This document shows, piece by piece, positions 6,273 through 14,287 of a DNA stretch of 32,025 bases (positions are counted from its first letter, which is position 1; every line of letters starts with the position of its first letter). The stretch spans positions 1 to 32,025 of the forward strand of contig ONAH01000066.1 in the NCBI GenBank assembly GCA_900315715.1. Direction: 5' to 3'. The notes under the pieces are model-generated. The model searched no databases. It had not been told where the DNA came from and saw only the letters and a list, made by a program, of their open reading frames with translations. The translations under genes were made by a program, and so were the position numbers. Source of the DNA: an uncultured Eubacteriales bacterium. Lineage in GTDB: Bacteria > Bacillota > Clostridia > Oscillospirales > Acutalibacteraceae.

Positions 6273-7433
6273 TTATTCAAGAGAACCTATAATAGTTTCT
6301 TCCGTTTCGTAAATTTCCTCATTAAGAAGTTGTTCAACATCATTTCTGAAGTCGTCCATAGTTTTATTGTGAAAAATGAACCAGTGATCCGGATCGTTGT
6401 GTTTAGTTCCGATACCCATCTGACCGGCTTCGTAGTGACTGATGATTTGATCAGTATCGAAATCATAAGTGTAAGCAAGATAAGCAGCATAAACAGTGGC
6501 ATTTTCCCAAATCTTATCGAAATATTTCTGTTGTTCTTCTGTATTATACTTTGTGATATTCCAGTTTTTATCATACTCAAATCCAGCAGGTTCACAAATT
6601 TCAAAGTCTATTCTTGTGTCATTGACGGGAATACCTGCATGCCAAGCAGTTTGTTCAAACGGGAGATACTGATAAACGCCTTCATCGTCAAGAAAAGCAT
6701 GAACACATGCAGGAGTACCGCCCTTATTCCACATAGAATACCATTGATCAGCCTTTATACCTGGTTCAGCAGTAGAGTGTACAACCAAACCGAGAATATT
6801 ATCAAAGTCATAAGTTTCGCTGTAACAGTCATTATATATCATAATTTCTTTGGTGCTTTTGAGAGTATGTTCTCCGACATGGATAATTTTTTCTGTTTTA
6901 TTATTGACGACAGTAACATTACATTCTGCAGTCAAACCATTTGAAGCCTTAACGACAACGTGATCAGTTCCGAGATGGTAACCTTTCACAAGACCGCTTG
7001 CATAAGATACTTCAAGAACAGGTTCCCCGGTTCCGTCATCAGAAACAGCACCGTCAAAAGTATAAGTGTAGGTAAGTCCTTTGTCGCTTCCGTTAATAAC
7101 TTTAGGATTAAGAGTAGTTCTGTCCCCGCAGTTAATGGTAATTTCTGAGGGGAGATAGAGCATAGGGACATTAAGATTAATAGTGCTTCTAAGAATAAGA
7201 AGAGCATCAACATTAGTGATTTTTCCATCATTATTATAGTCAGCAGAAGCTTGTTGTACATCATTAAGCTTGGTAAGTCCAACCGTATGTCTTTGAACAA
7301 GAAGTGCATCTGCCGAACTCACCTTACCGTCACCGTTTATATCTCCCTTTAAAAAACTATCAGCAAATGCAGAAAGGGTTGATAGTGATAGTATGACAGA
7401 CGCAGAGAGTATAGTAGAAATAAATTTTTTCAT
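6273..7433 (-). CDS. Exported dockerin-containing N-acetylmuramoyl-L-alanine amidase
   Basis: Predicted secreted peptidoglycan amidase of 386 residues. The start is ATG 7433, because AGGAG lies nine bases before it and a signal peptide follows at once (MKKFISTILS, hydrophobic core, cleavage near AFA at 22-24); the longer frame from TTG 7454 adds a non-signal extension. Residues 30-87 are a type I dockerin with two calcium loops (DINGDGKVSSAD at 31-42 and DYNNDGKITNVD at 65-76). Residues 95-177 look like an Ig-like domain. Residues 185-360 are an amidase_2 domain, with likely zinc ligands H219 (VVHST), H265 (WHAG) and H350 (NDPDHWF). A dockerin at the N terminus is less common than at the C terminus. 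It sits 19 bases upstream of pyrK, inside the pyr cluster, with no metabolic link apparent. A cohesin partner is not in this window. Confidence 0.88.
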   Translation of the reverse strand: MKKFISTILSASVILSLSTLSAFADSFLKGDINGDGKVSSADALLVQRHTVGLTKLNDVQQASADYNNDGKITNVDALLILRSTINLNVPMLYLPSEITINCGDRTTLNPKVINGSDKGLTYTYTFDGAVSDDGTGEPVLEVSYASGLVKGYHLGTDHVVVKASNGLTAECNVTVVNNKTEKIIHVGEHTLKSTKEIMIYNDCYSETYDFDNILGLVVHSTAEPGIKADQWYSMWNKGGTPACVHAFLDDEGVYQYLPFEQTAWHAGIPVNDTRIDFEICEPAGFEYDKNWNITKYNTEEQQKYFDKIWENATVYAAYLAYTYDFDTDQIISHYEAGQMGIGTKHNDPDHWFIFHNKTMDDFRNDVEQLLNEEIYETEETIIGSLE

Positions 7434-7554
7434 TAATAAATTCTCCTGTATCAATAAGTATTACCACACATAAATAGTTTGTATAAAAGACTTCAAATCC
7501 ATTTGGAGCAGAAGATGTTAAGATTATTACAAAGGAGACAACGCTATTTCTTTT

Positions 7555-7582
7555 GTAATCGATTATAACTGTAACCGATTAC
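7555..7582. promoter_or_regulatory. Tandem cre/LacI-family operator-like sites
   Basis: Two near-palindromes with a central CG lie 16 bases apart centre to centre: GTAATCGATTAT (7555-7566) and GTAACCGATTAC (7571-7582). The second, with flanks, reads TGTAACCGATTACT and fits the catabolite-responsive consensus TGNAANCGNWNNCW; the first misses one position. Each has one mismatch from perfect dyad symmetry. They lie about 120-150 bases upstream of the dockerin/amidase start. Binding by CcpA or another LacI-family regulator is inferred, not shown. Confidence 0.5.
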
Positions 7583-7726
7583 TTCACTGCCAAATCAAAA
7601 AGGCGATAAATACAGCGGTATAAGCGAAAATTCGTTTGTCAAAGAGATAGTTTGTGAATACTGCTAATACTAAAAAACAGTTTTATAGTATTGTCAATTA
7701 ATCCACTTATCTATTATTTAACGAAA

Positions 7727-7812
7727 CACTGATTAAATCAAGTGTCCAAATCCTCATAAAAAGCTAAAAACAGATTTGGACGCTCAGCCCGTTGGCAGAG
7801 ATTTAATCAGTG
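7727..7812. repeat. Compact three-stem inverted-repeat element
   Basis: An outer perfect 13-base inverted repeat, CACTGATTAAATC (7727-7739) and GATTTAATCAGTG (7800-7812), encloses a second perfect pair, GTCCAAATC (7744-7752) with GATTTGGAC (7773-7781), and a small hairpin CTC-A-GCC/GGC-A-GAG (7783-7800) closed by CGTT. The inner stem extends by a G-C and a U-G pair only on the plus-strand RNA. The whole folds as a Y with a three-way junction. It could be a structured RNA or a small mobile repeat with terminal inverted repeats. I could not assign it to a known riboswitch class. Confidence 0.6.
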
Positions 7813-7866
7813 AATACGAATTTATCAACCTAAGCAAATATCATCTTCAGTCAGACAAAAATGCTT

Positions 7867-10800
7867 TTACATATCAATAGTTGAAATACAAAGTGTAGTT
7901 TCTTCAAGAACGTCAAGTAATGCCCTAACAGTATCAAGAGCTGTAAATATAGCTACATTGTTTTCGACAGCCCAGCGTCTAATGCGATAACCATCGTGGC
8001 TGTTTTCATGGTAGATATCCTTAGTGTTAATAACATAGCTGATATAACCTGATTGGAAAGATGAGAAAATATCGTCATTTTCATCAAGCTTCTGTCTAAC
8101 TCTTGTTCTTATTCCGTGACTCTTAAGGAACTGTGCAGTACCCTCAGTAGCCTCAATGTTAAATCCAAGGTTATAGAAACGTCTGATTAGCGGGAGTGCT
8201 TCCTCTTTATCAACATCAGCAATAGTAGCGAAAACTGTACCGTAATTAACCATTTTTGTACCTGAAGACTGTAAAGCTTTATAAAGAGCTCTGGTAAGTG
8301 TGTTATCATATCCGATAGCCTCTCCGGTAGATTTCATTTCAGGTGAGAGGTAAGCATCAAGACCACTTAGTTTAGAGAAGGAGAAAGCAGGTGCCTTAAC
8401 ATACCAGCGTTCCTTTTCCTTAGGATAAACAACATCAATACCTTGTTCTTTAAGGCTTTTGCCAAGAATAGCCAGAGTAGCAATATCTGCAAGAGAATAT
8501 CCGGTAGCTTTTGATAGGAATGGAACAGTTCTTGAAGAACGAGGATTTACTTCGATAACATAAACATCATTGTTCTTATCTACAATAAACTGAATGTTAT
8601 ACAGACCAACAATACCGATACCAAGACCAAGTTTAACAGTGTAGTCGATAATAACGTCTTTGACCTCCTGAGGAATAGTGAAAGACGGATACACACTTAT
8701 AGAGTCACCGGAGTGAATACCGGTACGTTCAACATGTTCCATGAGTCCAGGGATAAATACACCTTTTCCGTCGCATACAGCATCAACTTCGCACTCTTTG
8801 CCTACAATATACTTATCAACGAGTACAGGTTTATCCTCATCAACCTCAACTGCGGTTTTAAGGTAATGTCTAAGCATATTTTCGTTTGCAACGATCTGCA
8901 TAGCACGGCCGCCAAGTACATAACTGGGGCGAACCAGAACTGGGTACCCGATATCAGCAGCGGCCTTAACGCCGTCCTCAATATTAGTAACAGCCTGACC
9001 CTTTGGCTGAGGAATTTTAAGCTCCTCCATGATTTTTTCAAATGAATCACGATTTTCAGCCTTTTCGATAGCCTCAACATCAGTACCGATAATCTTAACT
9101 CCTCTTTTCATAAGAGGTTCGGCAAGGTTAATAGCAGTCTGACCGCCAAGAGAAGCGATAACTCCCTCAGGTTTTTCGAGTTCAATAATGTTCATAACAT
9201 CTTCAACAGTAAGAGGCTCAAAATAAAGCTTGTCACTTGTTGTATAATCTGTTGAAACGGTTTCAGGGTTGTTGTTGATGATGATAGCTTCATAGCCGTT
9301 GTTTTTAATAGTAGCAACAGCGTGAACTGTGGAGTAGTCAAACTCAACACCTTGACCGATACGGATAGGACCGGAACCAAGAACGATAATCTTCTTTCTG
9401 TCGCTAACAATAGACTCATTTTCCTGTTCATATGTTGAGTAGAAGTAAGGAATATAGGATTCAAACTCAGACGCACAGGTATCTATCATTTTGTAAACAG
9501 GGAACATACCCAGTTTTTTTCTGAGATAATAAATATCGTCCTCAGTAGTTTTCCAGAGTTTTGCGATATATTTATCAGAGAAGCCCATTCTTTTTGCACG
9601 ATAAAGAGCATCGGTATCGTCTTTATTCTCAGCAACTATACGCTCAAACTCAACGATATTTTTGATCTTCTCAAGGAAGAACATATCGATTTTAGTAATA
9701 TTGAAGATTTCTCTCAAATCGATTCCGTTCCAGATAAGCTCAGCAATAGCGTAAATTCTGTCATCGGTACCCTTGCGGATATAATCGAGAAGGTCATCGT
9801 TAGACATATCATTGAACTTTGGTTTATAAAGATGATATACACCGATTTCGAGAGAACGTACAGCTTTGAGCAGGCTTTCCTCAAAAGTTCTGCCGATACT
9901 CATGACCTCTCCTGTTGCTTTCATCTGAGTACCGAGTACGTTTGAGGCATCAGAGAATTTGTCGAAAGGAAACCTTGGCATTTTAGTAACAACATAGTCA
10001 AGAGTAGGTTCAAAGCTTGCAGGAGTGTTAGCAATCTGAATTTCATCGAGTGTCATTCCAACTGCAATTTTAGCGGAAACTCTTGCGATAGGATAGCCGC
10101 TGGCTTTTGAAGCAAGAGCAGATGAACGTGAAACTCTGGGATTTACTTCGATAAGATAATAATCAAACGATACAGGATCAAGTGCAAACTGAACGTTACA
10201 GCCACCTTCAATTTTAAGGGCACGAATGATTTTCAATGCCGAGTCACGAAGCATGTGGTATTCTTTGTTAGTAAGTGTCTGACTTGGTGCAACAACGATA
10301 GAGTCGCCGGTATGAATACCAACAGGATCAAGATTCTCCATGTTACAAATAGTAATAGCTGTATCGTTAGCATCTCTGATTACTTCGTACTCTATTTCTT
10401 TAAATCCTTTAACGCTTTTTTCTACAAGAACCTGATGAACAGGGGAGAGTTTAAGTGCATTTTTCATTATTTCGACGAGTTCTTCTTCGTTATTAACGAA
10501 ACCGCCGCCGGTACCTCCAAGAGTAAAGGCAGGACGAAGAACGACAGGATAACCGATTTCCTCAGCAGCTTTAAGACCCTCTTCTATTGAGTGAGTAATG
10601 ATAGATGGGAGAACAGGTTCACCGATTTCTTCGCATAACTCTTTAAACAATTCTCTGTCCTCTGCTCGTTCGATACTTTCTACCTTAGTACCAAGGAGTT
10701 CGACCTGGCACTCTTCGAGAACGCCTTTTCTTGCAAGTTTCATAGCAAGGTTAAGACCTGTCTGTCCGCCAATACCCGGTACAATAGCGTCCGGACGCTC

Positions 10801-13836: not shown

Positions 13837-14193
13837 TTAGTCTGTATATTTATAGAAAACAATTTTTTCACCGTATTTCTCAAGAGTTAATGATGTACCG
13901 CTGAGTATATAAGGAAAAACGAACTCACTTTCGAGATTGTTGTCGATAATAATAATATTGTTGTCTGAGAAAACGCAAAGCCCTTTGATAATGCAGTTCT
14001 CATCATAGCTGTTTATGGTAAGAACTGCATTTTCGTCGTTAAAAGTTAAGTTTGCACAAATATCCTCATCATTTGAAAACCACTGATAAGCTCTTATTTC
14101 ATCTTCTTCATTGTTAATTGTTTTGGTACAGGCACTAAATAGAATAAATGTCGAAGAAAGGATTATAAAAAACAATTTACTGATACTTTTCAT
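13837..14193 (-). CDS. Small predicted lipoprotein (118 aa)
   Basis: The start is ATG 14193, because AAGGAG lies seven bases before it and a lipoprotein signal follows: MKSISKLFF, a hydrophobic core, then the lipobox FSAC near residues 19-22. The mature part is acidic and strand-rich (repeated Ile/Val with Asp/Asn turns), ending EKYGEKIVFYKYTD, which resembles small lipocalin-like lipoproteins of Firmicutes that report protein stability or bind ligands; no specific function can be given. The frame extends upstream to ATG 14220, but that would bury the signal. It is a single gene with no clear promoter motif, and it converges with the gene at 13605. Confidence 0.75.
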   Translation of the reverse strand: MKSISKLFFIILSSTFILFSACTKTINNEEDEIRAYQWFSNDEDICANLTFNDENAVLTINSYDENCIIKGLCVFSDNNIIIIDNNLESEFVFPYILSGTSLTLEKYGEKIVFYKYTD

Positions 14194-14287
14194 GTTGATC
14201 TCCTTGAAATACTCTAACATAGTAATAATGTATGCTTGTTAATAGATTAGTATGAATGATGATACAGAAAATTTATTTCTTTATATA

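Follow-up and report, generated by a model that had tools for sequence, protein, structure and literature searches.

The usual view of bacterial MITEs is that they arise passively from IS by deletion and that their hairpins are incidental. As far as the general account of prokaryotic MITEs in PMC10969869 goes, they are small and geneless, have terminal inverted repeats and a target duplication, occupy AT-rich intergenic sites, form stable stem-loops in would-be transcripts and have ends in common with an IS. IS5-family IS (NF033581) duplicate a YTAR target upon insertion, according to the part of PMC10359306 used here. In Streptococcus pneumoniae, BOX, RUP and SPRITE are small structured repeats enriched between convergent genes; BOX and RUP have terminal inverted repeats and a duplication, and RUP is tied to IS630 in trans (as summarised in PMC3049150). 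The Bacillus cereus repeats bcr1-bcr18 include bcr1-bcr3, which are MITE-like and located in UTRs, and bcr10 and bcr18, which have conserved secondary structure (as outlined in PMC3446304). Correia/NEMIS, ERIC, RPE and CIR are presented in the overview of PMC2229807 as small mobile repeats whose transcripts are long stem-loops, NEMIS being a proposed RNase III substrate.

The repeat family described here resembles each of these systems in the traits just listed, including the YTAR duplication and an IS5-family transposase found in a relative between similar ends; the action of such an IS in trans would be a further shared trait. It is represented in the window (the whole 32,025-nt stretch of DNA analysed) by an element that is very probably an IS5-type MITE copy, old and decayed, which an IS5-family transposase would have moved in trans, with a fold that has been maintained and that would serve the element's own spread or tolerance.

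A Y-shaped element in the gap after carB

The gap is flanked by carB and a dockerin/amidase gene, both confirmed by Pfam. The element is located 54 nt past the carB stop (codon 7867-7869, minus strand), and its plus strand is antisense to carB. It probably extends over 7722-7817, decayed terminal-repeat tips included, that is, 96 bp without a long open frame in any of the six frames (Table 1). The outer arms (7727-7739 and 7800-7812) are complementary at 13/13 bases, and the inner arms (7741-7752 and 7773-7784) pair at 12 positions, including one G-U; the minimum-energy fold gives the third stem 3 bp, as the hairpin GCC-CGTT-GGC of 7787-7796. The first-pass annotation had proposed stems of 13, 9-11 and 6 pairs: the first is exact, the second is slightly longer than proposed, and the 3-bp hairpin replaces the third. 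Its statement that the folding exceeds chance was borne out. As RNA, the plus strand of 7720-7820 reaches -34.2 kcal/mol against -13.0 in shuffles (z=-7.35), and the minus strand -33.5 (z=-5.18), with 0/200 shuffles as good in either case. A covariance model, R1, built from 17 copies with the window copy among them, matches the window at 7716-7823 (72.2 bits, E=3.7e-12). No riboswitch class had been recognised in the element, in agreement with the Rfam search at gathering score, which returned 0 matches in the window and, for 14 loci of the family, just a tRNA.

Table 1. Parts of the element in the window
Feature	Position	Strand	Remarks
Whole element, very probably a decayed MITE copy	7722..7817	+	Family orientation, with the side hairpin toward the 3' end; placed by the R1 match and the letters
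TTAA by the left end	7718..7721		By the family rule, perhaps what remains of a 4-bp YTAR target duplication
Left terminal inverted repeat	7722..7739	+	CGAAACACTGATTAAATC (family: GGAAnCACTGATTAAATC)
Inner stem, 5' arm	7740..7752	+	AAGTGTCCAAATC; 7741-7752 paired
Inner stem, 3' arm	7773..7785	+	GATTTGGACGCTC; 7773-7784 paired
Side hairpin	7787..7796	+	GCCCGTTGGC; 3 bp in the window copy, whereas most copies of the family have 4 bp
Right terminal inverted repeat	7800..7817	+	Inner 13 nt (7800-7812) intact; tip AATAC (7813-7817) decayed

The right-end counterpart of TTAA is absent, positions 7818-7821 being GAAT. Because the right tip has decayed and the right-hand duplication is missing, the window copy is regarded as a relic, and for the same reasons its own insertion is read from the behaviour of the family.

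Dispersal, target duplication and the IS5 link

BLASTN for dispersed copies had been suggested as the check on whether the element is a small non-autonomous mobile repeat. It retrieved 1 match in the window's own genome, whereas over 60 genomes (own and relatives) the element ends were found at many places. The own-genome test would miss a mobile repeat of this kind, since the copy is nearly alone in the window's genome; R1 retrieved two further, weaker matches there, both on contig C195 (45.1 bits, E=4.1e-6; 27.4 bits, E=0.035). At E<=0.001, 15/22 congeneric genomes carry the family, the highest counts being at least 111 copies in G003, at least 72 in G021 and at least 67 in G010; copy counts are lower bounds, with 150 candidates scored per genome in the congeneric set and 28 in a set of 120 genomes sampled from the taxonomic family. 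R1 matched 7 of these 120 genomes, five of which belong to other genera (5/118 sampled; G024, G029, G089, G124 and G151). Among the records that bear a name, most come from rumen MAGs assigned to uncultured Ruminococcus or Clostridia. This dispersal, together with the YTAR duplication and the lack of a full copy at the carB sites of 20/20 relatives (both described below), upholds the mobile repeat proposed in the first-pass annotation.

A plasmid or phage origin was rejected: no plasmid match was found for the element, phage records gave 2 weak 26-nt matches (E=0.6), both to records of one phage, and viral contigs contained 0 exact 21-mer matches. A 21-mer match in Peribacillus (L176) lies within a coding-like stretch and looks like chance. 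Separately, a G+C-rich stretch, GTCTGCCGGTGGCAGACG ... GCAACAGCACC, was observed inside two MITE cores and, nearly identical, in a carB-downstream gap (L042, L107 and L219); it is perhaps another dispersed repeat.

Intact copies have terminal inverted repeats of ~18-20 bp, GGAAnCACTGAWTAAATC. The target duplication was assessed in 107 copies of 96-463 bp, obtained with a pattern that gave 205 oriented rows, one orientation being retained. Identical flanking 4-mers were present in 79/107 copies, compared to a mean of 26.7 and a maximum of 39 in 2000 shuffles, and YTAR was found at 83/107 left flanks and 81 right flanks. Among the flank lengths tested, from 2 to 9, agreement at the others was in no case comparable to that at 4 bp; after this test, a TA-only duplication of the IS630/Tc1 type was dropped in favour of YTAR. 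A larger, later set yielded identical 4-mers in 109/148 copies (shuffle mean 44, max 59).

A DDE_Tnp_1 search of the 22 congeneric genomes led to a 1216-bp IS (locus L224, 1304-2519) bounded by TTAA and TTAG, the ends of which match the MITE consensus at 14/18 and 16/18 positions. Its 303-aa transposase, containing DDE_Tnp_1 and DUF772, scores 292 bits with NF033581 IS5 (cut-off 140). Pieces related to this IS at 89-97% occur in four other genomes, while the window's own genome holds relatives at only 33-67%, several of them with stops. The 5 genomes with relatives at 89-100% all belong to the 15 MITE carriers, a coincidence that could be due to chance (p about 0.11). This IS5-family IS is likely the parent of the MITE, the two being paired by their ends only and differing inside; an intact parent from which the inside had been deleted was rejected, as only the ends match. 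At another locus (L238, 650-790), a MITE 3' end and a copy of the right end of the IS adjoin each other (CTAG then TACTCAGCCC...), possibly an IS insertion into a MITE.

In the mechanism that we propose, an IS5-family transposase (for example, that of the ~1.2-kb IS of genome G021) would have bound the shared ends and transposed MITE copies in trans through a cut-and-paste route, after which the window copy would have lost its right tip and become immobile.

Maintenance of the fold and strand polarity

The outer stem, the inner stem and the side hairpin are kept family-wide by compensatory changes, and one strand folds better than the other. In a structure-blind alignment of 29 congeneric copies, compensated double changes were seen in 30 cells, compared to 10.5 in shuffles (0/500). 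From the same alignment, RNAalifold retrieved only 19 pairs, most of them in the outer stem, and its covariation term was close to zero, which warns against over-reading the within-genus data by themselves. When 25 copies drawn from genus g1 and 5 other genera were compared, doubly changed cells rose to 89 against a shuffle mean of 32.2 (0/500), with slid controls reaching at most 16. Double changes affected 18 pairs (0/500 shuffles), and the tally of further pair types lay well within the shuffle range (128/500). The copies in the alignments were hand-picked (A1, n=29; A2, n=17; A3, n=25). The inner stem is GAGTGCCC/GGGTGCTC in genus g1, GAACGTGCA/TGTGCGTTC in G124, TGATGTGCAG/CTGTACATCA in G024 and TGGTGCGCA/TGTGTGCCA in G089, and it is missing in the G029 copy.

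The covariation cells are not independent events, since copies share subfamily founders. The fold might be unselected, its inner stem and side hairpin being left over from a palindromic founder and the covariation arising from a few amplified founders. The clonality of copies within subfamilies, a shuffle control that ignores relatedness and the near-zero term within the genus all point in that direction. However, at least four founder types, in four genera, have inner stems that differ and are nonetheless well paired; the slid controls fall far short of the 89 cells observed; and the same Y recurs in a second family with other ends. Moreover, in 61 distinct inner-stem haplotypes, G-U cells outnumber A-C cells by 110 to 18, a bias in the non-standard pairs that is unlike the neutral decay of a palindrome. 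The haplotype count excludes copies lacking the inner stem according to our own rule (9/148 in the first family and 1/16 in the second). On balance, we consider an unselected fold improbable and retain a maintained one.

The plus strand is the more stable in 135/139 copies of the first family (mean -67.9 vs -54.0), and with DNA parameters it is lower in energy in 136/139; orientation was taken from sequence similarity rather than pairing, and N-containing copies were omitted (139/148 kept). The G-U pair of the window copy, read in the first-pass annotation as favouring the plus strand, thus reflects a family-wide polarity. This polarity could be explained by RNA or by a single DNA strand.

The match on C195 in the window's own genome has different ends, GGCAATACCGC.../...GCGGTGCTGCC, of a GGCAAYACCGC type. 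The corresponding end pattern was retrieved in 22/22 congeneric genomes, with up to 84+116 in G020 and several genomes at control level. Copies of this second family fold as the same Y; for instance, L324 has the outer stem, an inner stem TTGTGCCGAA/TTCGGTACAA and the hairpin GCCGTTAGGC. The two end types have alignable cores, 23/25 pairs scoring better than the best of 200 shuffles (best pair, 80/91 identical), and both failing pairs involve L326. Their ends may have been exchanged, or may have diverged along with the transposases that serve them. The target duplication of the second family is weakly supported, with 8/16 identical flanks (shuffle mean 3.8, max 8). In the window's own genome, an IS5-like insertion sequence has ends of this second type, TAAGGCAACACCGC, standing 1.0 kb apart around a transposase interrupted by stops (L327, G000:C15:3430-4490).

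A three-way junction held on one strand by compensatory change, in several genera and with two end types, argues for a role of the fold in the life of the element. We tentatively suggest, as a possibility that we rate below even, that the Y works as a single-stranded module, either RNA or a DNA strand that is exposed, and is selected independently of sequence and transposase. One core would then carry two sets of ends, each matching a different IS5-type IS, and a single structured parasite would ride two transposases.

The carB site, gene context and known repeats

carB is present in 21/22 genomes, the window's own included. The R1 scan found a full copy at carB in none of the 20/20 relatives, some of whose loci end early at contig ends; the sole match was a 13.7-bit fragment (E=1.3). 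The empty site is not readable to the base, because the gap around the window copy has diverged. One promoter-like site was found, a weak one, against 2.9 expected. These results bear on a stand-alone regulatory RNA, either riboswitch-like or antisense to the pyr operon. A stable three-way junction whose plus strand is antisense to carB would suit such an RNA, but the dispersal of the family with its target duplications, the lack of a full copy at the relatives' carB, the lack of an Rfam match and the paucity of promoter-like sites make it highly improbable. The three-way-junction RNA offered in the first-pass annotation therefore survives as a fold characteristic of the family, not as an independent RNA.

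In G012 and G021, the carB gap contains a short open frame plus a stem-loop after carB, and the alignment shows the stem-loop segment to be missing from the window. A stem of at least 9 bp starting at most 25 nt from the carB stop was detected in 12/16 readable relatives and not in the window (4/21 loci were unreadable). The window copy could accordingly have been co-opted as the 3' end of the carB message, as a terminator or an RNA-processing or stability hairpin replacing the stem-loop of relatives, and the convergent or 3'-end placement common in the family would fit this role. Yet intrinsic-terminator-like sites, with a G+C-rich stem and an immediate U run, numbered 0 at 7300-8000 against 0.3 expected, the strand that folds better is in this case antisense to carB, and the fold is a family trait at hundreds of sites. 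We therefore deem co-option unlikely and favour a decayed MITE copy with a fold of its own.

Two further observations concern the surrounding sequence. Window positions 7455-7720 align with the small open frame of the carB-dockerin gap in G012 and G021 and are broken by stops, likely a pseudogene remnant. Upstream of the pyr genes, the minus strand at 13837-14220 contains a 127-aa open frame without a Pfam match.

Placement among genes was examined, with crude ORF calling, in three genomes sampled as 40 tiles of 20 kb, which contained 38 copies. The first family was found in 14 convergent, 13 tandem and 1 divergent gaps, once inside an ORF and twice at edges, and the second in 7 tandem gaps; as background, convergent gaps amount to 16.7 kb, divergent gaps to 20.9 kb and tandem gaps to 63.3 kb. 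Pneumococcal repeats likewise prefer convergent gaps, which the relevant part of PMC3049150 reads as tolerance. In tandem gaps, 9 copies had the same orientation as the neighbouring genes and 11 the opposite, and a pattern-fetched sample gave 17 and 32; since the even tiles were split 9 to 11, we do not claim an orientation bias. The antisense role on the pyr message that had been attached to the G-U pair finds no counterpart in this even split. As copies lie in either orientation near gene 3' ends, we infer that the fold, as an element transcript or a single strand, would serve the spread or tolerance of the element rather than a host gene.

The family provides hundreds of natural copies for testing the function of the fold. 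It also illustrates that a lone structured gap in a genome can be all that is left of a MITE family, a trap for regulatory-RNA searches.

Structured MITEs as such are already known, and among open-licence paper titles we found none describing the family of the window element. Unlike IS5-family IS, the MITE is without a transposase, and what it has in common with the IS found is confined to the terminal ~18 bp. BOX, RUP and SPRITE, compared by their description in PMC3049150 only, belong to another host and IS family. The bcr repeats also come from another host and, in the description of PMC3446304 on which the comparison is based, MITE-like and structured-RNA bcr are named apart, whereas both traits meet here in one family. 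Correia/NEMIS, ERIC, RPE and CIR mostly form a single long stem-loop, with two arms in CIR, and the overview in PMC2229807, in the part used here, describes no three-way junction. With respect to prokaryotic MITEs as characterised in the cited portion of PMC10969869, the present family differs by an internal Y with cross-genus compensatory change and by one core with two end types. It is unusual in that matched mutations preserve a three-stem fold as the sequence, and even the ends, change.
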